Below are positions 30,746-60,770 of a DNA stretch of 64,000 bases, in pieces (position 1 is the first letter of the stretch; every line of letters begins with the position of its first letter). The stretch is taken from contig NZ_JALKAN010000002.1 of assembly GCF_023015965.1 (NCBI RefSeq), forward strand, positions 930,001 through 994,000. The letters run 5' to 3'. The translations under genes and the position numbers were made by a program. The notes beneath the pieces are model-generated. The model saw nothing but the letters and a program-made list of their open reading frames with translations, had not been told where the DNA came from and did no database searches. Source of the stretch: Allomuricauda sp. F6463D. GTDB lineage: Bacteria > Bacteroidota > Bacteroidia > Flavobacteriales > Flavobacteriaceae.

Positions 30746-30799
30746 ATCTCTTAATTAAGATATCCAAATTACAAAATTTTGGAATCAACCTTGTGGGAT

Positions 30800-36738: not shown

Positions 36739-37593
36739 TTAAAATCGATATTCATAAAGTTTTCTGCCACCGTGTTTGTTTTCTTCATCCGCAATAAGAA
36801 GCGTTTTGTTGTCCACAAAACAAACCGATTCAATTTGCGTATTGGTATTTAGGTCAACGATTTTTAATGAAGATTCGGTGAAGTCCGGAGCACTAAAATC
36901 CGTAAGCAAAAACATAAACCCATAGCTTAGCAAAGCAATTGTTTTGCCATCAGGAGAAATATCGGCACTCGTTACCGAGCAATGGTCTTGGTCTGCACAT
37001 AAGAACAACGAGCCCAAGAATTCAGCCTCGTATTCCCCTTCTTTATCAGGAACTCTATAAATCAAGGTCTTTCCAGAGTATGGTCTTGTACGGTTTTTTG
37101 TAAATATGTACAGATAATCGTTTAGGTGAAAAAAGCCCTCGGTATCAAAATAAAGACTGTCTTTTTGGGGAGGAAAATCCTTTTGTTGTGGGTATTTGAA
37201 TTCAATTTTGTCAGCATTGGGTTCTTTTTTGTCCATCTCCTCCTTCGGAATTTTATAAATAACCAAATCCTTGCGCTTATTGGCATTATTGCCAAAATCA
37301 CCAATATATAGGTTGCCCGCAATGTCAATGGTCAAATCTTCCCAATCTTGGTTTTTGGCATGGTCTATTTTTAAAGATTCCTTAAGGTCACCATCCTTAT
37401 CAACCCTATATATTTTATCCTTGTTCCCGCTATCTTCAATCACCCATATTTTTCCATCAGGAGTAATTTCCATTCCGGAAACTTCTTTTAATTTAGAAGG
37501 AAGCTTGCCCAACTTGTCCATTTCACCCATGTATGTTTTCTGGGCACAAGCATTTATTGTCATTAAGAGAAAAACAAGGGCAATCTTATTCAT
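36739..37593 (-). CDS. Beta-propeller-like lipoprotein, last gene of the VCBS/haloperoxidase array
   Basis: 284 residues. Signal ends INACAQKTY, lipid Cys16. The body has repeated strand-turn units with D-G-K motifs (MEITPDGKIWVIEDSG, LTIDIAGNLYIGDFGNNANK, ADISPDGKTIALLSYG, FVDNKTLLIADEE), as in SdiA-regulated/NHL-type propellers. The EVSGM motif near the start fits the SdiA-regulated group. Its start overlaps the end of the GyrI-like gene by 8 bp, so it is co-translated with it. Role in the array unknown; perhaps ligand binding. Confidence 0.82.
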   Translation of the reverse strand: MNKIALVFLLMTINACAQKTYMGEMDKLGKLPSKLKEVSGMEITPDGKIWVIEDSGNKDKIYRVDKDGDLKESLKIDHAKNQDWEDLTIDIAGNLYIGDFGNNANKRKDLVIYKIPKEEMDKKEPNADKIEFKYPQQKDFPPQKDSLYFDTEGFFHLNDYLYIFTKNRTRPYSGKTLIYRVPDKEGEYEAEFLGSLFLCADQDHCSVTSADISPDGKTIALLSYGFMFLLTDFSAPDFTESSLKIVDLNTNTQIESVCFVDNKTLLIADEENKHGGRKLYEYRF

Positions 37594-38485
37594 TGGGTTC
37601 TTTTATGGGCATAAATATTTCTGTCGTCCATTCTAGCTCATTACCTCCCATATTTGGGTTATTATTAAAAATTTCAAGTGGTTTGTCCTCAACAGGTATG
37701 TTGTTCTGTTCTGCGTAGTCCAATATGGCATACCAAGCACGATCTGAGGTGATATAATTTCCGTGGTAGACGGCCTTGATGGCGTTCTTACTAAAGATAC
37801 GTTTATATTCAATATCCGGATGGTCCGGAAGCCTTTCGGAGCGAATAATCGGGTTGCAGAAGTTGTAGGTAAGACTATTGTTTTCCAAATCCCAATCCAG
37901 TACTTCTACAAAGGGCGGACCGTTCAATGTTATTTTTTTCTCCAATAAAATGGTGTTTAGAAAATTGTAATTGGCCATCATGCCCTTAGCCTTGTCCTCC
38001 GGTGCTGTTTTGAGTTGTACACATGCACAATAGGACGAGAATGTTTCTTCCTCACCTTCAATGGAAACAGTAAACCCTTTTATATGTTCGTTCAAAAAAC
38101 TATTGAAGTCCAAGAGCAATTTTCGTGAACCTTTCTCAAAATCGGTATCAGAAAATGGTACTGACAAACGATTGCTCATGGAATGGTCTTGATCTTTGAT
38201 ATTGACTTGAACTTTGCTCAAAGAATCGTGTACTGGACTAATCTTCCATTCATATAAATGGACAGAATCGTTCATAAAAATTTTCTGCTTAAAATGTTTT
38301 GGATTTATGTAGACCAGAGGGTGTACAGAATCAAAACCGTTGTTCCAAGCTTTTACAGTTTCGAATATGGTTCCAGGAATTGCTTTTGCTTTAAAATTAA
38401 CCTGATAATCTTGCGGCTTTAAAAACAAGTACCACAAAACTACTCCTACCACAAGGGCTAGAACTATTGAATAAATCTTCCTCAT
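37586..38485 (-). CDS. Membrane-anchored GyrI-like (effector-binding) protein
   Basis: 299 residues. One N-terminal membrane helix (MRKIYSIVLALVVGVVLWYLF) leads to an exported SRPBCC-like region (about 25-150) and a C-terminal GyrI-like small-molecule-binding domain (about 155-295: VEVLDWDLENNSLTYNFCNP, KAVYHGNYITSDRAWYAILD, WTTEIFMPI). GyrI-like domains usually sit on MerR/AraC transcription factors in the cytoplasm and bind hydrophobic effectors. Here no DNA-binding part exists and the domain should face the periplasm. It lies 22 bp from the haloperoxidase-like gene and overlaps the propeller gene. Confidence 0.85.
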   Translation of the reverse strand: MRKIYSIVLALVVGVVLWYLFLKPQDYQVNFKAKAIPGTIFETVKAWNNGFDSVHPLVYINPKHFKQKIFMNDSVHLYEWKISPVHDSLSKVQVNIKDQDHSMSNRLSVPFSDTDFEKGSRKLLLDFNSFLNEHIKGFTVSIEGEEETFSSYCACVQLKTAPEDKAKGMMANYNFLNTILLEKKITLNGPPFVEVLDWDLENNSLTYNFCNPIIRSERLPDHPDIEYKRIFSKNAIKAVYHGNYITSDRAWYAILDYAEQNNIPVEDKPLEIFNNNPNMGGNELEWTTEIFMPIKEPNE

Positions 38486-38507
38486 AATTAACCAACAAAA
38501 ATAGGAA

Positions 38508-39839
38508 TTAGCGCTTTGTCATGTCCAATTTATCCACTACAAATTTTCCGAGGTCCCTACCTTGTTTTACTCCTACTTCTATAGCTGCTCTATAATGGAT
38601 GCCACCATACATTCGGCTAATAGCAGCTTCGTCGGCAGCTTGGTTAAAGGAGGTAAAAGAACGGATTGGAAGACCATAGGCTACTTCTGTATCGTCATCA
38701 AAAGCGAAGTCATCACCAAAGATATCCGTTAAGGCGGTAGCTGCGGCACCGGAGACCACACTGTGTCCGCTGGTATACTCTGGAAACGGTGGTGTTTGTA
38801 ATACAGGCTCCCAACTGTCGTCCAAATATTCATTGATCACAGTTTCTGGACGTATCAGGTTACTTCTGTATTTTTCATCCCAACAGCTTATAAAAGCATC
38901 GGCTATGGCAATTGATGTTTTAGTATAGGCGTAAATTGTTTGGGCATAATCGGCATTTACTTTTCTTGAAGCTATTTTGGTAATCCCTATCCAATGGGCA
39001 CCTGGTGTGATTTTTTTTGTAGCAAACATTAAATGTCCCCTTGATACGGAAACATAGGGGTTACAGTCCCAAAACTGGGCTATTTCTATTTCTTCGGATT
39101 TATCCCCTTTCTCTATCATGCTTTTTCTTACCTCGTACACTTCCATTAACTCCTTATAAAAATCGGAGTCCTTTTCCATGGAGAATTCCGGCGGAGGAAC
39201 AGGCTTGAACTGTTGTGCAGAATCAATAGCAAAAGGGCGTATTTTGTTCCAATGGGGTTCTATTCCGTTCATGTAGGCCGGAGGTGTAGGTTGCCAGCGT
39301 GAGGGGTCTTCAGAGTTTACGGAGAATTTTGGCATGGTACGGGTTTCTTTGTAGTTGTCCTTGTCCATCCATTCGCCTATAAAATCAGCTACTTGTAGGC
39401 CATAATCTTTGGAAGCGTTAAAAACGGGCTCATTCTTATCTGTCCAAATAGTATATAGACTATCACGAAAATTTTCAATCCTATCTTCTGAAAAAATCAA
39501 TCTTTTGTTCAAATCTATATGGGCAATGAGTGCGGCCATTTCAAAATTGATGTTCTCTTCATTTTTTGGTTCAGGAATGCTTTTCAAGTTGGTTACTTGT
39601 CCTGTCAAGGATTTATAATTGTCATTCTTTAAGGCAATGATTTCATATGCTGCAATATTGGGGTATGCAAATATCCTGCTGGCCACTGGGGGTGAAAAGA
39701 TATCGTGAATCATTACTTCGATAACCTTGTCCATGGAAGCATGCAGTTCCTCTGGAGTGATTTCGATGGGTTCCTGTCTTTTTTGACATGAAGTCAGAAC
39801 CAATAACACTATTGCGATGAGACTTATTCCTTTTTTCAT
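38508..39839 (-). CDS. Vanadium-haloperoxidase/PAP2-like lipoprotein
   Basis: 443 residues with lipid Cys18 (VLTSCQK). The vanadate/phosphate pocket of the VHPO-PAP2 superfamily is visible: K-x6-RP at 323-331 (KYRSNLIRP), SGH at 357-359 (EYTSGHSVVSG) and SRMYGGIHYRAA with His415. All helical otherwise. True vanadium haloperoxidases oxidise halides with H2O2; relatives with the same pocket are phosphatases, and the Ser and Gly of SGH do not decide between them. Gaps of 8 and 22 bp to the flanking genes show it is part of one operon with the three UnbV proteins. It would act in the periplasm or on the surface. Confidence 0.88.
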   Translation of the reverse strand: MKKGISLIAIVLLVLTSCQKRQEPIEITPEELHASMDKVIEVMIHDIFSPPVASRIFAYPNIAAYEIIALKNDNYKSLTGQVTNLKSIPEPKNEENINFEMAALIAHIDLNKRLIFSEDRIENFRDSLYTIWTDKNEPVFNASKDYGLQVADFIGEWMDKDNYKETRTMPKFSVNSEDPSRWQPTPPAYMNGIEPHWNKIRPFAIDSAQQFKPVPPPEFSMEKDSDFYKELMEVYEVRKSMIEKGDKSEEIEIAQFWDCNPYVSVSRGHLMFATKKITPGAHWIGITKIASRKVNADYAQTIYAYTKTSIAIADAFISCWDEKYRSNLIRPETVINEYLDDSWEPVLQTPPFPEYTSGHSVVSGAAATALTDIFGDDFAFDDDTEVAYGLPIRSFTSFNQAADEAAISRMYGGIHYRAAIEVGVKQGRDLGKFVVDKLDMTKR

Positions 39840-39847
39840 GATTTGTT

Positions 39848-42800
39848 TTACTTGTTGATTTTATAGACTTGTGCTTTGTCGTTGTTGAATGTAGCTAACA
39901 AATACTTTTTATTATTAAGTGTAATTGTTTTTAAATGCCGAATTGATTTTTTGGTAAAATCCAACCCCAATTGATTGCCCAATAGAATATCGGTTTCATT
40001 TTTGAGTAGGGCTCCAGGAAATGAATCCAGCCTGCCATGATAGGGTTTTACTCCAAAATAGTTACCGCCGAGCAATACTTCCCGATTGCCATCACCATCA
40101 AAATCATCTACTAAAAAGGACATGATCGGTGATATTTGGAGCTCATTCTTAAAGGGAACAAAAACAAATGAACCTCCATCATTTCTCAAATATCCCGATG
40201 TAAGGGTATTTACTTCCAATTGCGTAGATGCTTTTAACATGTCCTCGCCAAAAATCTCTTCCATGGTGACACCTGCAAAAGATTTGTATGTAGTATATTT
40301 CTTTTTCAGATAGACCATTTGAGAGGCTAATCCGTCCAATGTTTCCAATGGATAATATTCACCATTTTTTTCCATGGCAGTTACGGTTTCAGTTTGACCG
40401 TTCTCGTCAAAATCATTAAAATATAACTTCATGGGATGCTCTTGAGATGCCTTGAACTTGGAGTTGGTCCCCCAGTTGCCCAAGAGATAATCGGTGTCTC
40501 CGTCCCCATCAATGTCAAAAGCTTCAATGGCTTGCCAAAGACCGGTAATATTTTCTTGCTGGACTTCTGTGAAAGTGCCATTTTGATTTTTCAAAAACCT
40601 TGGAGCCATCCATTCCCCAACCAAGATGAGATCCGTGATTCCGTCATTATCAAAATCGCTCCAAATAGCATCGGTCACCATTCCTTTGGAAAATTCCTCA
40701 AATGATTTATTCACCTTAAAAGTTCCATTCTGATTCTCCAACAAATAGGAACTGGCTAGAGTTCCAAATTTGGATGTAATGGTATGTCCACCCACAAAAA
40801 CATCCAAGTCACCATCACCATCAAAATCAAAAGGTTTTACCACAGATGAGTTTTGATAAAACTCTGGCAACTCAACACTGGTAAAAACGGTATCTTTTTG
40901 TATGTAATATGCATCCATCAAAGGAGTGGCCTTTCCAAAAAAGTCGCCCCCTCCCGAACTAACAATCAAGTCATTTTTTCCATCTTCGTTAAAATCTGCT
41001 ATAGCTGCAGAGACATTTTCTCGAATCCTATCTTTTATAATGGTATCGTATGGCCGGTGTATAAAAACAGAGTCTTGTTGAAGATAGATTTGTGAGGGTT
41101 CGTATTTAGATCCGCCAAAGAATACATCATCTTTTCCATCTCCGTTTAAATCACCGACTGCTACAGCTGGCCCTCTATCGGAGACTTGATAGGGAATCAA
41201 TTTTTCACGGTTAAAATCGGTATAGTTGTCCTCTTTGTGAGTAAAATTAAGACCTAGATTGTTGGGTACGGGACTGAACAGTGGTTTTTTGGTTACGTGT
41301 AACGAATTATAATCAAAAGGTATTGTGTTTTTTGGAGCTACGGTCAGTGTTTGGTTTACGGGCACGTTTTTAACAACCTGATAAGTTTTGTTCGGCCAAA
41401 TAATTTTAATGGAATCGATTTGTTCCACTTTTTGATATCCAAAATGGATTATCGGTTCGGAAGATGCTTGAAAACCTCTTGTAGGAAACAGCTCTTTAAA
41501 TTGCAATTGACCGTTGGAATATGAATATACCTTGGTTCCGATGCCATGCGTATTTTTTTGGGTGTAATTAAATTTTAGTTTTATATAATTTCCTTTGCCG
41601 TTTGTTTTGTTAATGTACAGTGTCGCTGGTCGATCAATGTTGTTCGTAACTAAATCCAGATCGCCGTCACCATCGAGGTCGCCCACAGCGGTCGCACCGG
41701 AAATTAGGGTATCTTTTGTAATCCAATCTCCGGACATGTCTTGAAAATTCAAATCTGTTCCGCCTTTAAAAACATAGTTGTGCACATTTCCAGACGGCAT
41801 TAAGTCCAAGGCTTTTTGGTCTACGAGTTTGGTGTTGTCCATTTTTTGCTGGATTTGTTCACTGGAAACAAATTTGATGAAATCCAAGTCGTTGGGTCTT
41901 TTTGGAATCCCGTTGGAAATGAATATATCCTGTTGGCCATCAAGGTCATAATCACCAAAAAGGGCACTCCAGCTCCAATCTGTCGCTGCTATACCACTCA
42001 TCAGTGCGGTTTCCATAAAATTACCGTCTGGTTGGTTCACGAACAACATATTGCGTGTAAACTGATAGTGGTAGCCAAAACGCTCAATCCTCATTTTTTG
42101 GGTCTGGATGTTGTCATCCCCTTCAGAGGATTTTAGGGCCACTTCGTCTTCGGGAAGCATGTCCAAAGAAATAAAATCTGGGCGTCCATCATTATTTATA
42201 TCAGCTACATCGCTGCCCATGGAAAAACGAGAAGTATGTCCAAAGTATTTTTTTAAACTTTCCGTAAATGTCCCATCCCCGTTGTTGAGGTAATAATAAT
42301 CGTCTTCATGGAAGTCATTGCCCACATAAATGTCCGGATACCCATCTTGATTAAAATCGGCAATGGCCAAACCTAGCCCATACCCATTGATTCCTCCATA
42401 AATACCGGCCTCTTCACTTACATCGGTAAAAGTTCCATTGTCGTTTCGTAAAAGTTTGTCACCTGTTTCATAGCGGCGTTCGTACCTAAGATCAAAACGA
42501 CCAAAGGAATTTTGGGTGTGTACTGCATGGTTGAGGAGATAGAGATCGAGATCACCGTCCAAGTCATAATCAAAGAAAGTGGCGTTGGAACTGTAGGAAT
42601 CGAAATCCAGTCCATATTTTGCTGCACTTTCAGTAAAGGTATTGTCCCCATTGTTTATGTACAGCTCATTGAAACCATTAAATCCATTGATGCCAACTAC
42701 GGCACATACATAAATGTCCAAAAATCCGTCACCATTTACGTCGGCCATGGTGGTTCCAGTGTTCCAGCTACTGTTTCCTTCTATCCCAGCGGTTGTTGAA

Positions 42801-43087
42801 ATGTCTTCGAATTTTAAATCACCCTTGTTGAGATACAATTTATTTTTGACTTGGTTTCCTGAAAAGAAAATATCGGGCAAACCATCATTGTTGATATCGC
42901 CGATGGAAACTCCTCCTCCGTTATAAAAATAGAGATAATCCAAAATGCTCAAGTCATCGGTAGATGTAAGGGTATTGGTAAACTGGACCCCGGTTTTTTG
43001 TGGGCCGGGATTTTCAAAAAGACTGCCTTCCTTTTTGCAAGAAGCAATCAAAACTGTTGCTAGTACTATGATGAGAAACCTATTCAT
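39848..43087 (-). CDS. FG-GAP/VCBS repeat lipoprotein with UnbV/ASPIC domain (third of three)
   Basis: 1079 residues, lipid Cys17 (LIASCKKEG). About 14 calcium-loop motifs of the form D-x-D/N-x-DG-x-x-D (DINNDGLPDI, DVNGDGFLDI, DYDLDGDLDL, DFDGDGDLDV and others) mark FG-GAP-like beta-propeller blades, one propeller before and one after a central UnbV/ASPIC segment (HGIGTKVYSY, then FPTRGFQASS and IDSIKIIWPN). The domain order is that of CRTAC1-like proteins. Its start overlaps the stop of the previous gene by 8 bp. Presumed surface, calcium-dependent binding protein; partner unknown. Confidence 0.92.
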   Translation of the reverse strand: MNRFLIIVLATVLIASCKKEGSLFENPGPQKTGVQFTNTLTSTDDLSILDYLYFYNGGGVSIGDINNDGLPDIFFSGNQVKNKLYLNKGDLKFEDISTTAGIEGNSSWNTGTTMADVNGDGFLDIYVCAVVGINGFNGFNELYINNGDNTFTESAAKYGLDFDSYSSNATFFDYDLDGDLDLYLLNHAVHTQNSFGRFDLRYERRYETGDKLLRNDNGTFTDVSEEAGIYGGINGYGLGLAIADFNQDGYPDIYVGNDFHEDDYYYLNNGDGTFTESLKKYFGHTSRFSMGSDVADINNDGRPDFISLDMLPEDEVALKSSEGDDNIQTQKMRIERFGYHYQFTRNMLFVNQPDGNFMETALMSGIAATDWSWSALFGDYDLDGQQDIFISNGIPKRPNDLDFIKFVSSEQIQQKMDNTKLVDQKALDLMPSGNVHNYVFKGGTDLNFQDMSGDWITKDTLISGATAVGDLDGDGDLDLVTNNIDRPATLYINKTNGKGNYIKLKFNYTQKNTHGIGTKVYSYSNGQLQFKELFPTRGFQASSEPIIHFGYQKVEQIDSIKIIWPNKTYQVVKNVPVNQTLTVAPKNTIPFDYNSLHVTKKPLFSPVPNNLGLNFTHKEDNYTDFNREKLIPYQVSDRGPAVAVGDLNGDGKDDVFFGGSKYEPSQIYLQQDSVFIHRPYDTIIKDRIRENVSAAIADFNEDGKNDLIVSSGGGDFFGKATPLMDAYYIQKDTVFTSVELPEFYQNSSVVKPFDFDGDGDLDVFVGGHTITSKFGTLASSYLLENQNGTFKVNKSFEEFSKGMVTDAIWSDFDNDGITDLILVGEWMAPRFLKNQNGTFTEVQQENITGLWQAIEAFDIDGDGDTDYLLGNWGTNSKFKASQEHPMKLYFNDFDENGQTETVTAMEKNGEYYPLETLDGLASQMVYLKKKYTTYKSFAGVTMEEIFGEDMLKASTQLEVNTLTSGYLRNDGGSFVFVPFKNELQISPIMSFLVDDFDGDGNREVLLGGNYFGVKPYHGRLDSFPGALLKNETDILLGNQLGLDFTKKSIRHLKTITLNNKKYLLATFNNDKAQVYKINK

Positions 43088-46000
43088 TCAGAGCGAAAAT
43101 CTTTGGTTTATTGTTGTTAATTGCGGCAATAACATAAATTTTGCCATTTTTATCCTTGAACTGTTTTAGGTATTTCACTTCTTCCCTGATCTTAAAGCCG
43201 CTTGTCTCATAATCTTGCCAGGTAAAATTTAGGTTGCCGTCCCCCAACAATAGGTTTCCTTGGCTTGCATCCAAACGTGAAAACTGCGGTTTAAATTCGT
43301 AATTGTTACCCGCCATGATCAAGTCAAGGTTGCCATCGTTGTTCACATCGGCACAGGTAATATCACAAATACAAGAAAGTTGCACTCTTGGAGGTAGATT
43401 TTTAATGGTAAATTTACCACCTCCTTCATTAATGGCTATTACAGATGCCGAGGTCTCTACTTTCTTTACAATCGACTTGTCCATGACTTCTTTTGGGAAA
43501 AGCTGTTGGATGGTACGGTGGGCATAATCTGTTGCCTTTAGGTTCTGTTTTTTAAGTGAAGGTAGTTGATCGGTAAGCTCTCTTTTTTGATGAATTGGAT
43601 AATCGCCACCATTTTCTTGCATGGTCATGATTTGCTCAATGGTGCCATTGTTGTCATAATCGTTGATATACAATTTCATTGGTGCGTATTCCGTAGGTTT
43701 GTAATGAAGATTGAGACCTTGGTTGCCTAAAATTAAATCTTGGTCTCCGTCGCCATCAAGGTCTGCCGTTTCTACGGTATTCCACCATCCATGAAGACTG
43801 TCTAGGGAACTTGTCATTTTTGTTAATCGCCTGCCGGTGTTCTTATAGATTTTTGGGGTGTCCCATTCTGCAGTAATGATAAGGTCTTTTTTACCATCAC
43901 CATCAATGTCCTCCCATTTGGAATCGGTTACCATACCGGCATTTTTGAGGTCGTACCCCAAGCGTTCCGTTACATCGTTAAAAGTGCCATCTCCCATATT
44001 TTCAAGTAGAAGATGGTCAGGAGATAAACCATACACGCCTACTACACTTCGCGACCCGATAAAAAGATCTACATCTCCGTCGTTGTCAAAGTCATATGGA
44101 GCTATTGTTGCAATATTTTTAAATGTTGAAGGTAGCTCATTTTCAGATTTTGAAAAGTTTCCGTTGCCATCATTTAAATATAATCGAGCTCTGTAATTAC
44201 GCTCCATTCCCACAACATTACCGCCGGAGCCAACGACCAAATCAAGATCTCCGTCACCATCTGCATCAAAAAATGAGGCGGCGACATCTTCAAATTCTTT
44301 ATCTTCTTCAAAGGCCTTTATTGACTTAGGTACTACGTTACCATTGCCCCTATGCATATATATGGTTCCCGGTTGTCCTTTAGCTCCACCAATGTAGAAG
44401 TCTTCATTGCCATCACCATCAATGTCGGCCACAGCTAGTGAAGGTCCTTCTTGGGAAACCTTATGCGATATAAGACCTTCGTAATCAAAATCATTGTACT
44501 TATCTTCTTTATGTGCAGCGACGACACTTGTAGCCAATTCCTTAAGGAAAGGCTTTACCGTTGCTTTGTTTGGTATTGTATAGGTTTCCTCTGCATTGGA
44601 ATAATCTAATACCAATACTTGGTTGGCCGCTACTTTTTCCAATTTTTGAGTAAGGTTATCGGGCCATACAATACGAATAGAATCCAATTGTCCGGTTTTA
44701 CCCAAACCAAATGTCATATCATACTGTACCGAAGATTGGAAGCCTCGGGATGGAATCAATTCTTGATTTATGATATTACCGTTAAAATATAGTTTGGCCA
44801 ATGTGCCAACTGCAAATGGGTTGGTTTTTGGCCCTTTGAATTTTAATTGGATATAATTGTTGTTCAATTGGGTGTCCGTGTTGTTTTTGTAAATAAAGGC
44901 CTGTGTGTTTACATTGTTTATTACTAAATCTAAATCTCCATCGTTGTCCAAATCTGCATATGCGGCTCCATTTGAGCGGGAGGGGAGCTCAAATCCCCAT
45001 TCTTTATTCGCATTTTTAAAGGTGATATCCCCATTGTTTTTGTATGCAAAGTTCGGCTGTGGTTTTACCGGCATTTTGCTGATAATGGAGTCAATGGATT
45101 CTTTCTTGCCTGTTAAAGCCATTTTTTGAACAATTTCGTTGGCAAAAAAGTCTACAAAGTCCAAATCGGTAAGATCGTGGTTTATTCCATTAGTGATAAA
45201 AATATCCTTTAGACCATCATTGTCCATATCAAACATGAGTCCTGCCCAGCTCCAATCCGTGGCATGGACACCACTGTAGTAGGCAACTTCGGAGAATGTG
45301 CCGTTACCGTTATTGAGCTGTAATGTGTTTTGGATATATTGTTGGCCAAAATCTTTGCTTTGCTTTAGGTCAAAAATATTGTAGCCTTCAAACTCCATTA
45401 CGGATTTTACCCTATGTTCTTTTTCGGGTAACATATCTGTAATGAAAATATCATTGTGCCCGTCATTGTTAATGTCGGCTATATCTATTCCCATAGCGGA
45501 TAGGCTCAAATGGGAAGTCCAATCCTTAATTTCTTCATTGAACGTTCCATCTTTTTGATTTATATAGAGGTAATCCCTTTCATAAAAATCGTTGGACACA
45601 TAAATATCGGGGTACAGATCACCGTTAAAATCTGTGACCATTACACCTAGACCGAAACCGATTAGGCTTCCATAAATACCTGCCTCCTCACTAACATCAA
45701 CAAATTTCCCATTGTCATTTCTTAAGAGCATATCACCAACCCCTTTGAAAATGTCGGGCACGCCTTCCCAATCCTGGGCTCTTACTTCCCGTTGTTCGGC
45801 ATAGCCAAGACTACTTACGGGAATGTTGCTGTTGTTGAGAATGTATACATCCAAATCCCCATCTTTATCATAATCAAAAAAAGTGGCGTGGGTTGTGAAT
45901 CCAGTTTTGGCCAAGTTATATTCTTCCGCTTTTTCGGTAAAGGTCAGGTCTCCATTGTTTATATAGAGGTCGTTATCATGGTTGTTGCCTTCCATGTTAC

Positions 46001-46427: not shown

Positions 46428-49400
46428 TTATCGTTTTGTTTTTGGACCAAAAAAACGGGAGCACCATTGTTCATTGTAATTATGAACTCCGCATTCCCAT
46501 TCCTATTTATTTTTTCAATTTTTCTGGCTGCGCCGGAAATCCCCAAGTTTTGTTTCCAAGTTATAGTGCCATTATTGTCATTTTGTAATAAAAATCCGTG
46601 TGAAGCGTCCAATCTACCAAGTTGGGTGCTTATCTCAAAATTATTGCCTACCATTAATATTTCATTAATCCTTTCTTCACTGTTTTTTACCAAGTAAATA
46701 TCGTTCACCGAAGAAGATTGCACTAACCTGGGAAGTTCTTTTATGCTAAAGTTATTGTTGCCATCATTTTCAAAATATGAAGTGGCGAGTAGATATACTT
46801 TTCTTTTAGTTGCTTCTTCTAATTTATCATCACCAAATAATTCTTCTAAGGAGGCCTTTGCAAAGTCTTTGTAGAACAGAAATTTTTTATTCAAAAAAGG
46901 CATTTGCTTGGTAAGTTCATCTTTAGATGCAAAAGCAGTTTCCCTGTCCCCATGAAAATGGGTCACTACGGTTTCAATGGAACCATTGTCATCAAAATCG
47001 TTGATATAGAGTGTGATCGGTTTTTTAGTGGAGGCATTGAACTTGGTATTGAGTCCCCAGTTGCCAGCAAGTAAATCCAAATCTCCATCATTATCCAAAT
47101 CGGCAACTTCAATGCAGTTCCACCACCCGTTGGTTTTTGCTAGGCCATTGTCCTTTTGGGGTAATAGTTGTTTTCCGTTGTTCAAGAAGATGGTGACTGG
47201 AATCCAATGACCAACAACAATAAGATCTTGAAATCCATTTTTATCAAGATCTTTCCATATAAAATCTTTTACATTGCCTATATTTTTCAGTTCTGGTGCG
47301 AAGGAAGATGTCACATCCTTAAAATTGCCTTTTCCATCATTTTCCAAAAGGTATTGCTCACTTTTCTCCCCAAATTTCGTTGGAACTGCGTTTGAAGTAA
47401 TAAAAAGATCGAGATCTCCATCGTTGTCAAAATCCACGACGTCAGCTTTTGATGCATTTACCTCAAGTTCCGAGAAGTTTTCTTCGTCTTTGGTGAAAAT
47501 TCCTTTGTTGTTACGATATAGTCTTGGTTGGAGCGGTTTGCCAGTAGTGAATTCATTGCCACCGCTAACTACGATTAGATCTAGGTCTCCATCATTATCT
47601 ATATCGGCAAAAACTTGGTCAATATCTTCGTTGATTGCATCTAGATCGAATAGTTCCGGTTGATGCGCATTGAAGTTGCCTTTTTCATCTTGTAGGTATA
47701 GTTTTGAAGCTTGTGTTTTTCCACCGCAGATAAAAAGATCATCCATTCCATCGTTGTTGATATCTGCTATTGCAGTCGACGGACCTTCATTTGAGTAAGC
47801 AAATGGAATAAGTGGGTTTCGGTCAAAATCCAGACTGGGATATTCTTTATGAACAAATTCAATACTTTGTGAAGAAGGTTCATACTCTGGATTTTTAGGT
47901 GTTATGTTCGTAAAATAATTTCCTGATGCATTGGAATAGCTAACTTCCAATACTTGATTGGCCTTGATGTTATGTAAGGTTTCAAATTTTCCTGCTGGCC
48001 ATATTACTTGGATAGAATCAATTATGGTGTCTTTGCCATGACCAAAGTTTAGACTATTGTCCTTAGCAGACATAAAACCCCGGGTTGCAATGTTTTCTTG
48101 GACAGCTACTTTATTATTGTTGAATACAAGAACTTTAACACCTATCCCAAATTTATTTTTTGGACTTCCTTCAAATTTAATTTTTGTAAAGTTCCCACCT
48201 TCTAATGTGTTTTCCATTACAAAGGCTTCTTGGTTTACGTTGTTTACGACCAAATCCAAATCTCCATCGTTGTCCAAATCCGCATAAACAGAACCGTTAC
48301 TATAGGAGTCTAATTGTGGTCCCCAGGTATCGGTTACATTGGTAAAATCTGTACCCCCGTTATTTTTATAATAATAGTTTTGTACTTTCTTCTTTGGTAG
48401 CCGATCAATAAGAGCCATGTCCTTGTCGGACAGTCCTTTTTCTATATTTTGTTGAATATCCTCGTTCGAAATGTAATTTATGTAATCCATGTCGTTGGTT
48501 ACACCTTGAATGCCGTTGGATATAAAAAGATCTTTGAACCCGTCATTATCAAAGTCTGCCAGTAACGCTCCCCATGACCACTCCGTTGCATCTATTCCAC
48601 TTAAATTGGCAATTTCTGCAAAGTTTTCACCATCTAAATTTAAATGAAGTGTGTTTGCCATGTACTGAGGAGCAAAGCCATTTTTAAGGTATTGTTGGTA
48701 TACTGGATAAGGATATTCCAGACCGGATGTTTTGTACGTTTCCAGATCCTCTGGCAGCATATCCAAGGATATAATGTCGGATAGCCCATCATTATTGATG
48801 TCGGCGATATCGTTGCCCATTGAAAAGTGGGTGGTATGTCCCAATTTCTTATCATCATCAGAGATGGTCTCTTTAAATGTTCCGTCCTGTTGATTGATAT
48901 ATAAATAGTCGTTTTCAAAAAAATCATTACCAATATAGATGTCTGGGTAACCGTCGTTATTTATGTCGCTAATTGCAAGTCCCAATCCATACCCTATAGA
49001 TCCTTGGAAAATACCAGCTTCTTTGGATACATCGATAAATCTACCGTTTTCATTTTTAAAAAGGATATCGCCGGACATGGAGTCTACAATTTTTCGTTTT
49101 GCGCCTTTTCCATAGGAACGATTTGGATTTACCGAATGATTTAGGAGATACATGTCCAAATCACCGTCCAAATCATAATCAAAAAAAGCAGCTTGAGTGG
49201 AATATCCGATAAAGTCCAAACCATACTTTTTAGATTCCTCCTTAAAAGTAGGTATGCCATCTTGATTGTTTCCTTGATTAATATAAAGCAAGTTATGTCC
49301 ACGGATGACACCATGGTCCCCAACTTTGGAAATGTATATATCCAAAAGCCCATCGTTGTTAACATCGGCTTGTGTAACACCTGTAGTCCAGCCAGATTCG

Positions 49401-49729
49401 TTTATGAGCTTAGCAGTCGTAGTGATGTCTTTAAATATAAAATCTCCTTGGTTAAGATAAAACTTGTCTTGTTCCTGATTGGAAGTGAAATAGAGGTCTA
49501 CAAGGCCATCACCATTAAAATCACCAGCTGCCACTCCGGCCCCATTATAAAAATAGAGATAGTTTAAAATGTTAAGGTCTGGGTTCTGGGTAAGTTGATT
49601 GTTAAATGTTATTCCTGTGTGTTGCGAATCTTTTTGAACAAATAGCGTTTTCGTTTCTTTTTTCCCACAACTTGTTAGGGTTAGTACAAAGCCAAAAATA
49701 ATCCAGAGTTGTCCTCTCATTTCTTTCAT
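46424..49729 (-). CDS. FG-GAP/VCBS repeat lipoprotein with UnbV/ASPIC domain (first of three)
   Basis: 1101 residues, lipid Cys21 (LTLTSCGKKE). About 13 calcium loops (DFNGDGLVDL, DVNNDGLLDI, DYDLDGDLDM, DIDNDGDLDL, DLDNDGDLDL and others) in two propellers around a central UnbV/ASPIC region (IATRGFMSAKDNSLNFGHGK, IDSIQVIWPA). An internal ATG at codon 4 (MRGQLW) may be the true start; it would shorten the signal only slightly. First gene after the terminator that closes susD, with its own 5' region holding an inverted repeat. Its stop overlaps the next start (ATGA), giving tight coupling. Confidence 0.92.
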   Translation of the reverse strand: MKEMRGQLWIIFGFVLTLTSCGKKETKTLFVQKDSQHTGITFNNQLTQNPDLNILNYLYFYNGAGVAAGDFNGDGLVDLYFTSNQEQDKFYLNQGDFIFKDITTTAKLINESGWTTGVTQADVNNDGLLDIYISKVGDHGVIRGHNLLYINQGNNQDGIPTFKEESKKYGLDFIGYSTQAAFFDYDLDGDLDMYLLNHSVNPNRSYGKGAKRKIVDSMSGDILFKNENGRFIDVSKEAGIFQGSIGYGLGLAISDINNDGYPDIYIGNDFFENDYLYINQQDGTFKETISDDDKKLGHTTHFSMGNDIADINNDGLSDIISLDMLPEDLETYKTSGLEYPYPVYQQYLKNGFAPQYMANTLHLNLDGENFAEIANLSGIDATEWSWGALLADFDNDGFKDLFISNGIQGVTNDMDYINYISNEDIQQNIEKGLSDKDMALIDRLPKKKVQNYYYKNNGGTDFTNVTDTWGPQLDSYSNGSVYADLDNDGDLDLVVNNVNQEAFVMENTLEGGNFTKIKFEGSPKNKFGIGVKVLVFNNNKVAVQENIATRGFMSAKDNSLNFGHGKDTIIDSIQVIWPAGKFETLHNIKANQVLEVSYSNASGNYFTNITPKNPEYEPSSQSIEFVHKEYPSLDFDRNPLIPFAYSNEGPSTAIADINNDGMDDLFICGGKTQASKLYLQDEKGNFNAHQPELFDLDAINEDIDQVFADIDNDGDLDLIVVSGGNEFTTGKPLQPRLYRNNKGIFTKDEENFSELEVNASKADVVDFDNDGDLDLFITSNAVPTKFGEKSEQYLLENDGKGNFKDVTSSFAPELKNIGNVKDFIWKDLDKNGFQDLIVVGHWIPVTIFLNNGKQLLPQKDNGLAKTNGWWNCIEVADLDNDGDLDLLAGNWGLNTKFNASTKKPITLYINDFDDNGSIETVVTHFHGDRETAFASKDELTKQMPFLNKKFLFYKDFAKASLEELFGDDKLEEATKRKVYLLATSYFENDGNNNFSIKELPRLVQSSSVNDIYLVKNSEERINEILMVGNNFEISTQLGRLDASHGFLLQNDNNGTITWKQNLGISGAARKIEKINRNGNAEFIITMNNGAPVFLVQKQNDK

Positions 49730-49781
49730 TAAAAGCAGTGGGTAATTTAATTAATTCCAGAGCAAGTGGGGCAGGGTAACG

Positions 49782-49809
49782 ATTAATCTTTTTCTAATGA
49801 AAGATTAAT
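49782..49809. promoter_or_regulatory. Inverted repeat upstream of the UnbV operon
   Basis: ATTAATCTTT / AAAGATTAAT, perfect 10-bp arms with an 8-nt spacer, 53 bp upstream of the first UnbV gene. It has no U-run after it, so it looks more like an operator or mRNA hairpin than a terminator. A third partial copy (TGATTAA) follows at about 49813. Confidence 0.5.
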
Positions 49810-49838
49810 GTTTGATTAAGGTTATACCAAATAAAAAG

Positions 49839-49866
49839 GAAAGACCACCGATCGGTGGTCTTTCCA
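49839..49866 (-). terminator. Strong intrinsic terminator after susD
   Basis: 28-bp perfect palindrome: stem GGAAAGACCACC / GGTGGTCTTTCC around GATC. On the minus strand it is followed by TTTTTATTT, 28 bp after the susD stop. It separates the susCD transcript from the UnbV/haloperoxidase operon, or sets the ratio between them by partial readthrough. Confidence 0.9.
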
Positions 49867-49893
49867 TATATAAACGACTTAAACTTTGTTTTA

Positions 49894-51435
49894 TTAATAT
49901 CCTGGGTTTTGTACCAAGTTAGGGTTCGAGATTATTGCCGTTGCAGGTATAGGGAACAAGTTTTTGGTGTCATCCCCAGAGACCTCTTTGTAAGACCATG
50001 GAGCAGTAAACTGCCCGAAACGAATCAAATCGTTTCTTCTCCAAAGCTCACCATACAATTCTCTTCCTCTTTCATCAATAATGTCTTGCTCGGTAACACT
50101 TCCTAATGCAGAAGCTCCTCTCAATGTTCTAAGAGCATTAACCATTGCTGTTGGGTCTCCTCCACTTCGTAACATGGCCTCAGCTTTCATTAAGTAAGCA
50201 TCGGCATATCTGAATACAATCTTGTGATTGGCAAAAGCACCATTGGCAGGGTTGTATTTAATTACCCTAATTCCAGTTCTTTCGTTGTTACCCAACAAAC
50301 CTGGTAATTCTTTTGTGAAGACCAAAGGGGCTCCGGTTCTGTCTGTATAGGGATTACCGTTGGCATCGTACTGTTGTCCAATTAGGAAACCGTTTCCAAT
50401 ACCAAAGTTTGTCCCATCTGTAGGCACAAAACCTCTTCTTTCTTCCTGACCTGAACCAGTAGTGTTTACGTTGGCATCACCTTCAAACAAATCATAGAAT
50501 TCTGCAATCGTGGTAAAACCGTTCCAACCACCAGCTTGATCTGGAACTACTTGATTGTAGTGTAAAGTGTTCCAAATGTTTTCACCAACACCAGCTGTTG
50601 TAAACCAGATAGTTTCAGTATTTAAATCGTTGATGTCTTCGTAGCCTCCATCTTCAAACAATTCAAAATATCCTTCTTTAAGGGCAAATCCTTCAGCTTC
50701 GATATCATCTACTAAACTAATAACTTGTTGCATATCCGAAGCGTCTGGTGTTCCGGAGCCTGTGTATATATGCTTATTCAAGTAAAATTTAGCCAATAAT
50801 ATCATTCCGGCTGCTTTTGAAGCTGAGACCAATTCTTCACTTGGGCCTACAGACGGTAAATCTGGAATGGCTTCGGTCAAATCGGTTACAGCAAAGTCAT
50901 AAGCCTCGGTTCTTGTCATAACTGTTGGATTTACATCCGGTCCTTCATCTGGAGTTCTGAATGGAACTTGCCCAAACATATCAATTAACCAAAACATGCT
51001 ATAAGCTCTTAAAAACTTAGCCTCAGCAACTTGTTGTGTAGTTGGGCTACTTCTACTATCAATAATAGTAGTTGCATTAAATACATTACTATTCTGATCG
51101 TTCCAAACATTTTTCACTCTTTGGTGTGTTGGACTCCAAGTGTGAGAATGCAAAGTTCTCCATACTCCGTTGTCTCCCCAGTCTGTTCCACGAGTTGGAA
51201 CCACAAACTCATCGGTACTCACTTCCGCAAGTGCGTACAAATTTTCTTGTGTTTGTAATTGACCTCTTACTGAATTGTAAAGTGCAGTAAGGCTCGACTC
51301 AGCTTGGACTCCTGTAAATTCACCGCTCAAGTCGGTGAATATCGAATCTGTCTGTTCGATTTCTAAATCTGTGCAACCCAACATACCCAAGGATAGTGCC
51401 CAGATGTAAATTTTATTTAGTTTAATAGCTTTCAT
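49894..51435 (-). CDS. susD: SusD/RagB-family surface nutrient-binding lipoprotein
   Basis: 513 residues, lipid Cys21 (GMLGCTDLEIEQ). The SusD fold is evident: N-terminal helices with TPR-like repeats (AEAKFLRAYSMFWLIDMFGQ-VPFRTPDEG) and the C-terminal motif of the family (IFRYADAYLMKAEAMLRSGG, IIDERGRELYGELWRRNDLIRFG). SusD caps the SusC barrel and captures oligosaccharides or other ligands. It lies 12 bp after susC on the same strand and ends at a strong terminator. The ligand is not shown; a GH13 enzyme across the divergent promoter hints at alpha-glucan. Confidence 0.95.
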   Translation of the reverse strand: MKAIKLNKIYIWALSLGMLGCTDLEIEQTDSIFTDLSGEFTGVQAESSLTALYNSVRGQLQTQENLYALAEVSTDEFVVPTRGTDWGDNGVWRTLHSHTWSPTHQRVKNVWNDQNSNVFNATTIIDSRSSPTTQQVAEAKFLRAYSMFWLIDMFGQVPFRTPDEGPDVNPTVMTRTEAYDFAVTDLTEAIPDLPSVGPSEELVSASKAAGMILLAKFYLNKHIYTGSGTPDASDMQQVISLVDDIEAEGFALKEGYFELFEDGGYEDINDLNTETIWFTTAGVGENIWNTLHYNQVVPDQAGGWNGFTTIAEFYDLFEGDANVNTTGSGQEERRGFVPTDGTNFGIGNGFLIGQQYDANGNPYTDRTGAPLVFTKELPGLLGNNERTGIRVIKYNPANGAFANHKIVFRYADAYLMKAEAMLRSGGDPTAMVNALRTLRGASALGSVTEQDIIDERGRELYGELWRRNDLIRFGQFTAPWSYKEVSGDDTKNLFPIPATAIISNPNLVQNPGY

Positions 51436-51447
51436 AGAAATTATTTT

Positions 51448-54400
51448 TTAAAAAGTTGCACTAACACCTAATGTAACTGTTCTCGACCTTGGGAAGGCGG
51501 TATAGTCGATTCCCAGAGATGGTATATTGTTCAAAGATTTTGGTACGTTAACTTCTGGGTCAAGACCTGAATAATCTGTGATGATAAATAAGTTCTGACC
51601 GATCAAGGATAAACGCAAACTTTGTAAAGTTCCATCTCCGCTCAATGGAACGTTGTAACTCAACGATGCATTTTGCAACCTTAAGAAATCACCTTTTTCT
51701 AAAAATCTTGTAGAAACATCAGCTGCGTTGGCATTGGATTCTCCATTTGTAAGAACGTTTTGGGTAACATTTTTACCTACTCCAATAATACCTGCTGTAA
51801 AATAGGCGTTCTGCGTATTATTATATACATAGAATCCGTACTGTCCGGACAAGAATGCATTAAAGTCCCAATTCTTGTACGAGGCACTTGTACTAATACC
51901 TAAATTAACTTTAGGCAATGCACTCTTATCAACAAATTGTTGAACATCACCATTTGGATAGATTGAGATTCCGTTTTCATCAAATCCTCCAAACTCTCTT
52001 AAATAGTAGGAAAATAATGGTTGTCCACCAGCTAACAACTGAGCAAACGCTCCTGTAAGACCATTACCGTTAATTTCACCTGTTTGAATTTGTCCATCGA
52101 AATCCTCCACCATGTTATCGTTATATGCTACGTTGAAACCTAGGTTCCAGTTGGCTTCCTCCATTTGGATGATATCATAGTTCATGGAAAGTTCTACCCC
52201 TTGGTTAATTACTTTGGCATCTAAATTACCAAAGAAAAAAGGTTGGGGCGAAGGTTGTGCCGCTTCTTGTTGAAGAAGCAAGTCGTTGGTTGTTTTGTGG
52301 TAAAAATCCAACGTACCGGAAAATCTATTATTGTTGATACCAAAATCAATACCAATGTTAGCTTGCGCAGTTTCTTCCCATTTTAAATCATCATTTGTAA
52401 ATGATTGAATTGAAAGACCTGGCGCATTGATATTTTGATTTTGATCTATACCAATATCCGCAAAACGCTGTCTTACGGTGAAATTACCGTATCCTAAACC
52501 TTCCTGGTTACCTGTTATACCGTAACCAACACGAAGTTTAAGAGTAGAAAAAGTATCTCCAATAAAATCTTCCTCGTTCAATTTCCAAGCAAATGCACCT
52601 GAAGGGAAGTAACCATATTGATTATTTGGTCCAAACCTTGAAGAACCATCAACCCTTAAAGTACCAGTAACAATATATTTATTGGCAATAGCATATTCAG
52701 CTCTACCAAAGAAAGATTGTAGTTCATCTGTAGTATCAAAATAATCGCCTGCGACTGCACTAATTGGAACGCCAAGAGGGCTGGTTACATTAAATGTTCC
52801 TGGCTCGTCTACAAATAAACGGTTTACAAACGTTCCTGAATCATTATAGCCGAATTGCTGGTACTCGCCATCGAGTTGACTTTCGATAGTAGAGGTCGCG
52901 GATTCCAAATCGGAAGTCATTTGATTTAAATCTGTTGTTGCAAAACCTAAACCTGTGATATTTTTACCTGCTCTTTGGTAGCTCTGGAAAGAGTAACCAA
53001 CTAATGCGGTTAACTTTGAATCATCAAATTCCTTAGTGTAATTAAGAGTTAGATCTAAAAGTTTACCAGTAACCTCCACGTTACTGAATGCTCCCTGCCC
53101 TTGACCGGGTGCGTTTCCAATACCAGTTGATAATGAAGATTGTACTTGATATTTTTCAGAACTTGAATCATCATAACCTACCGCAACTTTAGCTTTTAAT
53201 TCTTCTGTAATGCTATATTCTGCGGAAACGTTCCCCAAAAATCTATCGGTGTTGGTTACATCATCATAGTAGTTCAACAATTGGAGCGGGTTAATTTCAC
53301 TGCCTCCTGTTGTAAAGTTTGTGCTTGCTGGCCATGTGGGATTGGCAAAATAAGTAGCACCAAGCAAATCTCCAGTAGAGCCCGAATTGTTGCTAATAGC
53401 ACCCCCGTCATCGTTAATTCTTGAAAGTGTCAGGCTTGCATCAATTTTTAATTTATTATCAAAAAATCTTTGTGATGCGTTTATCCTCCCTGTAATTCGT
53501 TCTTGTGCATAACCTTCAACGACACCAAATTGCTTTTGGTACCCGAAAGAAGCACGAACGTTTCCACTTCCATAATTTTTGGCGTAGGAAAGGTTTTGGG
53601 TCTGGGAAGCAGTACTTCTCAAAATAAGTTCTTGCCAATCTGTGTTAGATCTAAAATCTAAAGCGTTAGGGTCACCGCCGTATTCTGGTAGTGCAGTAAG
53701 GAATTCATTTCGGTCTAATAGATTGAAGGTTTTAGCAGGTGTGGAGTAGCTTAAGTTTGATGTAAACTCAAATTTTCCTTGTCCTGTTTTACCACTTTTA
53801 GTTGTGATTATTACAACTCCATTTGCACCACGAGAACCATAAATGGCCGTAGCAGAGGCATCTTTAAGGATACTCATGCTTTCAATATCGTTTGGGTTAA
53901 GGAAGCTCAATGGGTTTTTGGAAGAGCTGGTTCCTGTACCTACATCGGCACCTCCTGCAGAAGTGTCCTCACCTGTAAGTGGCATACCATCGACAACAAA
54001 TAATGGATTATTGTTGGAACGAACGGAACTTGTACCTCGAATTCTTACATTAATACCTGCTCCTGGCTCACCACTGCTCTGTGTAATCTGTACACCAGCT
54101 GTTTTACCCTGGATCAACTGCTCGGGGGATGATATCACCCCTTGATTAAAGTCTTCCGCGTTAACTACAGCAACTGCACCGGTGGCATCATCCACGGTAG
54201 TTTGCCCATAACCAATAATAACTACTTCGTCCAATGCCTGTGCATCTTCTTCCAAGCTAACGTTGATACTGGATTGGCCATTAACCGCAATTTCTACGGT
54301 TTTGTAACCAATGTAGCTGAAAACCAAGGTTGCGGTATCCTCTACATTGTTAAGGGTGAAGTTACCGTCAAAATCGGTCTGCGTACCATTGGTAGTACCT

Positions 54401-54534
54401 TTTACCAATACGCTCGCCCCCGGCAACGGTCCGTTTGCATCCGAAACGGTACCTGATACTGTCTGAGCTTTTACCAACCCAAAGCATAAAAATGCTCCAA
54501 GCAATAAAAAGCTTTTTAGTAGCGTAATCTTCAT
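51448..54534 (-). CDS. susC: SusC/RagA-family TonB-linked outer-membrane transporter
   Basis: 1028 residues. Signal peptide to VKAQ; CarboxypepD_reg-like domain at about 24-100 (VSGTVSDANGPLPGASVLV, FSYIGYKTVEI); the SusC motif LDEVVIIGYGQ; plug domain with GVQITQSSGEPG, VRIRGTSSVRSNNNPLFVVD and SILKDASATAIYGSRGANGV; then a long barrel ending TLGVSATF. It pairs with SusD to import large ligands across the outer membrane. A LacI-type operator lies about 100 bp upstream. The N-terminal part is close to flavobacterial alpha-glucan transporters as I remember them, which is weak evidence on substrate. Confidence 0.95.
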   Translation of the reverse strand: MKITLLKSFLLLGAFLCFGLVKAQTVSGTVSDANGPLPGASVLVKGTTNGTQTDFDGNFTLNNVEDTATLVFSYIGYKTVEIAVNGQSSINVSLEEDAQALDEVVIIGYGQTTVDDATGAVAVVNAEDFNQGVISSPEQLIQGKTAGVQITQSSGEPGAGINVRIRGTSSVRSNNNPLFVVDGMPLTGEDTSAGGADVGTGTSSSKNPLSFLNPNDIESMSILKDASATAIYGSRGANGVVIITTKSGKTGQGKFEFTSNLSYSTPAKTFNLLDRNEFLTALPEYGGDPNALDFRSNTDWQELILRSTASQTQNLSYAKNYGSGNVRASFGYQKQFGVVEGYAQERITGRINASQRFFDNKLKIDASLTLSRINDDGGAISNNSGSTGDLLGATYFANPTWPASTNFTTGGSEINPLQLLNYYDDVTNTDRFLGNVSAEYSITEELKAKVAVGYDDSSSEKYQVQSSLSTGIGNAPGQGQGAFSNVEVTGKLLDLTLNYTKEFDDSKLTALVGYSFQSYQRAGKNITGLGFATTDLNQMTSDLESATSTIESQLDGEYQQFGYNDSGTFVNRLFVDEPGTFNVTSPLGVPISAVAGDYFDTTDELQSFFGRAEYAIANKYIVTGTLRVDGSSRFGPNNQYGYFPSGAFAWKLNEEDFIGDTFSTLKLRVGYGITGNQEGLGYGNFTVRQRFADIGIDQNQNINAPGLSIQSFTNDDLKWEETAQANIGIDFGINNNRFSGTLDFYHKTTNDLLLQQEAAQPSPQPFFFGNLDAKVINQGVELSMNYDIIQMEEANWNLGFNVAYNDNMVEDFDGQIQTGEINGNGLTGAFAQLLAGGQPLFSYYLREFGGFDENGISIYPNGDVQQFVDKSALPKVNLGISTSASYKNWDFNAFLSGQYGFYVYNNTQNAYFTAGIIGVGKNVTQNVLTNGESNANAADVSTRFLEKGDFLRLQNASLSYNVPLSGDGTLQSLRLSLIGQNLFIITDYSGLDPEVNVPKSLNNIPSLGIDYTAFPRSRTVTLGVSATF

Positions 54535-60741: not shown

Positions 60742-60770
60742 ATATATGTAATGTTAGTGTTTAAAAAAAA

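Follow-up and report, generated by a model that had tools for sequence, protein, structure and literature searches.

A vanadium iodoperoxidase of Zobellia galactanivorans was reportedly described by Fournier et al. in 2014; to our knowledge, no physiological role of bacterial vanadium iodoperoxidases has been settled despite the solved structure. The chain 4USZ_A is named a vanadium iodoperoxidase of Z. galactanivorans in PMC5064120, where iodine uptake by Arenibacter C-21 is also described as driven by hydrogen peroxide (H2O2) and as requiring glucose, O2 and Ca2+. Excerpts of PMC6298971 describe a second kind of system, reduced alpha-1,4-glucan loci of Maribacter with one GH13 and one GH65 gene. 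Here, we analyse an operon of Allomuricauda sp. F6463D, located in a stretch of 64,000 nucleotides (contig NZ_JALKAN010000002.1, positions 930,001 to 994,000), which is referred to as the window. With moderate confidence, we regard it as a LacI-controlled operon for the TonB-dependent uptake of alpha-glucosides (maltodextrin-type) with an embedded vanadium iodoperoxidase module.

The operon comprises eight genes on the minus strand (Table 1). A first-pass annotation, made from the sequence alone, had listed these genes; all eight reading frames are present at the coordinates given there, and Pfam and NCBIfam scans support the families of all but the last gene. The tight packing that it described was also found: the junctions, calculated from the coordinates, are overlaps of 4, 8 and 8 bp or gaps of 8, 12 and 22 bp, except that susD and the first UnbV gene are 164 bp apart. 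The three UnbV/FG-GAP proteins have, as stated there, about 1,100 residues each (1079, 1115 and 1101 aa; PF07593 scores of 74.5, 64.7 and 62.5 bits, respectively). The assignments of signal peptides, and of a membrane anchor in the GyrI protein, are by reading. The NHL gene yielded only a sub-threshold NHL match (19.8 bits, cut-off 20), and relatives of its product are present in 42 fetched stretches.

The 3.7-Mb genome contains four UnbV genes, three of which belong to the operon. In addition, other members of the family have the same gene order, and parts of it are found elsewhere in the phylum, so the grouping is more than chance; the first-pass annotation had expected similar orders in other flavobacteria. 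The fourth UnbV gene lies in a separate SusCD locus (C21:130084-149534; labels C, L and G denote contigs, loci and genomes), which means that UnbV also occurs in SusCD loci free of a peroxidase. The order at that locus (L076, L077) is a GH92-like enzyme, UnbV, a fusion resembling ROK kinase and mannose-6-phosphate isomerase, and a sugar porter, the neighbours of UnbV being named by reading.

Table 1 Features of the operon and its surroundings (positions refer to the window)
Feature	Position	Strand	Basis
NHL-type propeller lipoprotein, 284 aa, last gene of the likely operon	36739..37593	-	weak family match
Membrane-anchored GyrI protein; C-terminal GyrI-like ligand-binding domain, residues 159-295	37586..38485	-	28.9 bits; anchor by reading
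Predicted vanadium iodoperoxidase ortholog, PAP2/VHPO lipoprotein, 443 aa	38508..39839	-	PAP2 38.8 bits; 4CIT/4USZ match
UnbA, twin FG-GAP propeller/UnbV-ASPIC lipoprotein, 1079 aa	39848..43087	-	Pfam/NCBIfam
UnbB, twin FG-GAP propeller/UnbV-ASPIC lipoprotein, 1115 aa	43080..46427	-	Pfam/NCBIfam, AlphaFold2 model
UnbC, twin FG-GAP propeller/UnbV-ASPIC lipoprotein, 1101 aa	46424..49729	-	Pfam/NCBIfam
susD lipoprotein, 513 aa	49894..51435	-	PF07980 74.4 bits
susC, TonB-dependent SusC/RagA receptor, 1028 aa	51448..54534	-	TIGR04056 691.8 bits
Predicted LacI-type operator ACGAAAACGGTTTCGT, 96 bp upstream of the susC start codon	54631..54646	+	conservation
LacI-family regulator, divergent from susC	54904..55923	+	family scan and identity to relatives
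GH13 alpha-amylase-family protein	55954..57831	+	family scan
GDPD, then flavoprotein, beyond GH13 (position of GDPD)	57989..58741		family scan
MIP channel and FGGY kinase	60013..62267		

The predicted operator ACGAAAACGGTTTCGT (16 bp) has a single exact copy in the genome, which is the one in front of susC. It was first recognised by visual inspection of the window and subsequently tested; a simple palindrome scan flagged it in one relative only. Exact copies are also present upstream of the operon-leading susC in genomes G133, G102, G286, G271 and G109, and copies with one mismatch in G201 and G167. The site was hence found at 8 of 8 loci, i.e. the window and all seven relatives with a 66-74% identical LacI near susC (six exact, two with one mismatch). 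The LacI gene of G271 is divergent from an upstream susC, yet the operator stands only before a second susC, which leads into the UnbV-peroxidase operon. This genome (L165, L055) harbours two SusCD-UnbV sets in tandem. No operator was found at the seven other UnbV-linked loci examined (G291, G039, G236, G095, G153, G114 and G181), where LacI genes, if any, are at most 38% identical to that of the window. The LacI genes of L058 (33%), L064 (28%), L169 (35-36%), L174 (38%) and L079 (37%) were rejected as counterparts and are, by identity, other regulators.

A site with one mismatch is located 108 bp before susC in G079 (L255), at a locus composed of SusCD, LacI (57% identity), MFS, bPGM-like, GH65 and GH13 genes; the peroxidase gene of this genome stands without UnbV. 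Since a similar regulator and site head this SusCD-GH65-GH13 locus, both appear to be of the class that belongs to an alpha-glucan system, and the system with this LacI and operator probably serves alpha-glucosides. LacI proteins with 52-56% identity are encoded on the GyrI side in L103, L122, L123 and L130, the susC promoters of which lie outside the fetched stretches.

With up to three mismatches, the window yielded two matches (one site, both strands) versus 0.71 expected. This number alone is not significant, so the evidence for the operator is its exact conservation at one place. Allowing two mismatches, the genome gave 8 rows at 5 sites, compared to 30 in a reversed control. The 3.18 Mb of fetched loci contain eight sites with no or one mismatch, six of them at susC promoters of these loci and two elsewhere (L074, L144). 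Away from the locus, an exact copy is located in G153 near biotin-type genes (by reading), and operator-like sites were observed near unrelated genes in G181 (two) and G079 (one).

The genes around the operon are those expected of a Sus-like locus: susC and susD adjoin, and the LacI and GH13 genes are divergent from susC. Of the pair GH13 and GH65 that marks alpha-1,4-glucan loci, GH13 alone is found at the locus itself; GH65 is encoded elsewhere in this genome, but at the locus in several relatives. In G133 and other relatives, LacI is followed by bPGM-like, GH65 and GH13 genes beside susC, although some lack one of these. The bPGM-like cluster adjoining GH65 was named by reading, and an assignment of the gene at 57989-58741 to bPGM was rejected, as the family scan identified it as GDPD. 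Trehalase cassettes occur at L056, L058, L066 and L068; the 'GH37' class used here also includes MFS-type proteins of 402-404 aa, and a Pfam scan confirmed trehalase itself at L056 and L068. L060, L061 and L063 combine a sucrose-type MFS with a GH65-like enzyme. The first-pass annotation had proposed an uptake locus of unknown purpose; this can be narrowed, as the LacI gene, the conserved operator and the GH65/GH13/trehalase neighbourhood point to alpha-glucosides.

When GH65, GH65-like, GH13, GH37, GH97, GH100-like and bPGM-like genes are counted as alpha-glucoside classes, at least one is present at 15 of the 17 loci of the order that have both SusCD and UnbV (13 of the 17 over an extended stretch), compared to none of the 13 other SusCD loci that this genome contains (12.5-20 kb each). 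The set of 17 excludes the window itself, L069 and L070, as well as L057 (no UnbV), L064 (UnbV, no SusCD) and L065 (contig end). These counts are supportive, but not a clean test. At L128, L138 and L172 (G039), genes for a GMC oxidoreductase, gluconate dehydrogenase subunit 3 or a TIM-barrel protein were observed nearby, a possible periplasmic sugar-oxidation set.

Several of these observations weigh against alpha-glucosides as the substrate. The comparison of 15 of 17 with 0 of 13 is biased, as the classes were picked with the loci already in view and the stretch read was longer than that of the controls for 13 of the 17. Counted over like lengths (the first 19.5-19.8 kb per locus), alpha-glucoside genes are present at 8 of the 17 order loci, and they are present at only 7 of the 20 phylum loci. 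Beside its LacI gene, the window has neither the bPGM-like gene nor the GH65 gene that several relatives have there, and the only GH65 gene of the genome is located at C11:1500312 with no SusD match nearby. A cassette of xylose isomerase (XylA), FGGY kinase and Na symporter accompanies L049, L050, L052 and L053 (the 'XylB' class also includes other FGGY kinases, e.g. glycerol kinase), FGGY-kinase/GlpD-type genes are found beside some loci, and arabinan-type enzymes (by reading only) beside L067. The SusCD ligand might accordingly be another small glycoside or sugar (xylose, glycerol glycosides or arabinan) that varies by lineage. Such cassettes and neighbours, the low like-length count and the MIP channel and FGGY kinase of the window would fit this alternative, whereas the regulator and operator are conserved and shared with a GH65/GH13 locus, and we consider it unlikely.

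The 443-aa PAP2/VHPO protein matches PDB entries 4CIT and 4USZ with an E value of 4.2e-233 over residues 5-441, while the next solved sequence reaches only 1.8e-05. Residues K323, R330, S357-G358-H359, R409 and H415 are invariant across 20 aligned proteins and identical in the alignment with 4CIT; we take these lysine, arginine, serine-glycine-histidine, arginine and histidine positions to be the vanadate site of the peroxidase. The ortholog of G133 is nearly identical to the 4CIT chain (by eye) and resides in the same operon type (L051/L160). Judged by sequence, the VHPO-like protein and the crystallised iodoperoxidase of Z. galactanivorans are orthologs. The fold family named in the first-pass annotation was hence correct and is refined to a specific enzyme.

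That annotation had left open whether the protein oxidises or dephosphorylates its ligand. A periplasmic phosphatase, or another enzyme with a vanadate/phosphate site that never makes oxidised iodine in the cell, would be in line with the PAP2 fold and with an active-site architecture that is the same in acid phosphatases. The locus is also present in Flavobacterium species, which we assume to be freshwater organisms living where iodide is scarce, a distribution that would suit such an enzyme. Against this stand the full-length orthology to a published vanadium iodoperoxidase and the intact residues that we take to be vanadate ligands. Orthology favours oxidation over dephosphorylation, and a phosphatase appears fairly improbable. 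The iodoperoxidase is never mentioned in the Zobellia algal-polysaccharide transcriptome paper; according to excerpts of PMC9296495, the paralog vIPO3 is induced on Ascophyllum nodosum.

According to excerpts of PMC5080379, lipoproteins exposed on the surface of Bacteroidetes have an acidic export signal that follows the lipidated cysteine. We scored proteins with a recognisable lipobox for a net charge of -2 or lower at positions +2 to +7 after the cysteine. The signal was found in 25 of 26 SusD proteins of the loci (7 of 33 were dropped for want of a recognised lipobox) and in 7 of 9 other SusD proteins of this genome (4 of 13 dropped). Among the other lipoproteins it was rare: VHPO 3 of 87 (15 of 102 dropped), UnbA 4 of 67 (11 of 78), UnbB 6 of 69 (19 of 88), UnbC 3 of 38 (12 of 50) and NHL 0 of 23 (20 of 43). 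The form C-x-K-(D/E)2 was present in 4 of 87 VHPO and 4 of 69 UnbB orthologs, and in none of the 67 UnbA and 38 UnbC orthologs. A simple reading of this charge contrast is that only SusD is placed at the cell surface.

The surface machine suggested by the first-pass annotation, here taken as a complex of SusCD, UnbV propellers and peroxidase on the cell surface by which a polymer would be bound and oxidised prior to its import, is difficult to reconcile with this pattern: the UnbV, peroxidase and NHL lipoproteins as a rule lack the signal that SusD of the same loci carries, and the C-x-K-(D/E)2 form is rare or absent in the VHPO and UnbV orthologs. The genes do share an operon with SusCD, large propeller lipoproteins could bind glycans, and utilisomes of the outer membrane that include surface lipoproteins are reported from gut Bacteroidetes (PMC7618045). 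On balance, such a complex is distinctly doubtful.

To assess the linkage of peroxidase and UnbV genes, peroxidase matches were collected from an order sample (33 of 296 genomes at E <= 0.001), a phylum sample (76 of 395 genomes at E <= 1e-30) and named genomes (at least 592 confirmed relatives, of which the best 80 were kept, a set leaning to close relatives). The order fetches and the best 80 named relatives, minus one duplicate, gave 99 scored orthologs with at least 45% identity. Neighbouring genes were called with a custom greedy open reading frame script, which overlooked the peroxidase and two UnbV genes in L197; these were recovered by tblastn.

An UnbV gene on the same strand is located directly 5' of the peroxidase gene in 81 of the 99 orthologs, with a spacing of -47 to 248 bp, and UnbV is present anywhere in the fetched stretch in 90. 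A GyrI gene follows directly 3' in 63 of the 99. More distant peroxidases (<42% identity, n=10) have UnbV directly beside them in two cases (L069 and L070). Outside the family, 20 of the 62 genomes of the phylum sample with a match were fetched (17 best-scoring and three lower), and UnbV lies within the stretch at 14 of these 20 loci from outside the order. In a FastTree tree of 120 peroxidases, UnbV is present in the fetched stretch for 105 of the 119 labelled rows; nine label changes are needed compared to a mean of 13.4 after shuffling, with none of 500 shuffles as low. The neighbourhood comparison across Bacteroidota, which the first-pass annotation had proposed as a check, revealed joint conservation beyond close relatives, the lack of which it had named as a sign of mere neighbours. 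The linkage is not accidental, but a unit conserved well beyond close relatives. That unrelated genes stand together by chance, for which only the 9 of 99 orthologs without UnbV in the stretch (including L057, L141, L147 and L158) could speak, is very improbable and already largely refuted by the direct adjacency in 81 of 99, the overlapping frames and the linkage outside the order and across the tree.

Some individual loci deserve mention. The peroxidase gene of Maribacter thermophilus (L120) is itself directly divergent from a group of bPGM-like, GH65, GH13 and GDPD genes, and its 10-kb flanks contain neither SusCD nor UnbV. A lipoprotein of about 200 aa is encoded between UnbV genes in L055, L159, L195, L209 and L211; one member was scanned and gave no Pfam match. 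Also encoded in the window (30779-34513) is a protein of 1244 aa that combines a calcineurin-type phosphoesterase domain with a long C-terminal part; relatives of this protein are found near the far end of the operon in 41 fetched stretches.

Each of the three UnbV proteins features 11-13 calcium-type motifs D-x-(D/N)-x-D-G, and FG-GAP repeats flank the UnbV domain on both sides. The AlphaFold2 model of UnbB, the middle one, has a mean predicted local distance difference test (pLDDT) value of 86, based on 22 sequences. Its best PDB match is murine CRTAC1 (9etn), with a template modelling (TM) score of 0.73 by target and 0.37 by query; the other 49 matches shown are of the DDB1 and spliceosome/CPSF type with TM scores of at most 0.23 by query. 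No enzyme fold was suggested among the 50 matches shown.

According to the alpha-glucoside reading, LacI would release the operator when an alpha-glucoside is present and free the susC promoter. SusD would capture the sugar and SusC import it, while the UnbV propellers, as calcium-stabilised scaffolds or binders, and the iodoperoxidase would face the periplasm. The peroxidase may use H2O2 arriving with, or made from, the imported sugar and oxidise iodide or another small donor, most likely for local peroxide removal, and the GyrI domain anchored in the membrane may be a sensor of the small molecule in question. Peroxide removal would be the simplest role of the module, iodine capture the bolder one. 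This scheme is open to further objections. The operon encodes no source of H2O2. Iodide may not be the physiological or the only donor, considering the presumed freshwater habitat of Flavobacterium. The rule for the surface signal was derived in other genera, and a few UnbV and VHPO orthologs do conform to it.

The bolder role can be put as sugar-coupled iodine handling. Import of an alpha-glucoside would supply the reductant for periplasmic H2O2, the iodoperoxidase would convert iodide to hypoiodous acid, and the calcium-binding UnbV propellers would serve to organise or bind either the enzyme or the oxidised iodine. We regard this as an improbable extension, although, if true, it would account for the dependence of iodine uptake on glucose, oxygen and calcium in Arenibacter C-21. 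The locus is carried by two Arenibacter species other than C-21 (L092, L109). If the idea holds, sugar-uptake operons across the phylum would be a hidden part of the marine iodine cycle. The operon with its twin-propeller partners is a possible genetic basis of glucose- and calcium-dependent iodine uptake in marine flavobacteria. In any case, the presence of orthologs of the iodoperoxidase prototype in a LacI-controlled sugar-uptake operon of many Bacteroidota provides a concrete lead on the physiological role of this enzyme.

Taken together, the earlier finding is real. It has become stronger in that the operon is conserved and its enzyme and regulator are identified, but it is weakened by the low probability of a surface machine. 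New here are the predicted 16-bp operator upstream of susC and its conservation with LacI. Among open-licence papers in PubMed Central, none was found to combine UnbV with SusD, FG-GAP with SusD and haloperoxidase, or VCBS with a SusD/SusC polysaccharide utilization locus, which does not show absence from print; in the broader literature on such loci in the same collection, haloperoxidase appears in none of the matches listed. One paper, PMC2668756, contains FG-GAP, SusD and TonB-dependent once or twice each.

Compared to described systems, the locus shares features with three of them. With the Z. galactanivorans iodoperoxidase (4CIT, 4USZ), it shares a predicted full-length ortholog with identical residues at the presumed vanadate site; that enzyme, however, is described as halide-oxidising, and a sugar-uptake operon as its context is not mentioned in PMC5064120 or in excerpts of PMC9296495, PMC8490876 and PMC11871015. 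With flavobacterial alpha-1,4-glucan loci, it has LacI, GH13, susCD and the operator class in common, and several of its relatives also GH65 and a bPGM-like gene, whereas haloperoxidase, FG-GAP, VCBS and ASPIC are not mentioned in PMC6298971, and the locus in the window has no susE-like gene between susD and UnbC. With CRTAC1 and other ASPIC/UnbV proteins, it shares the propeller and the UnbV_ASPIC domain, CRTAC1 (9etn) being the best structural match; the bacterial UnbV proteins, however, are about twice as long, and the match is limited to a part of the size of CRTAC1. Judged by its genes, the locus is best regarded as an alpha-glucan-type Sus locus with an iodoperoxidase and a CRTAC1-like module.

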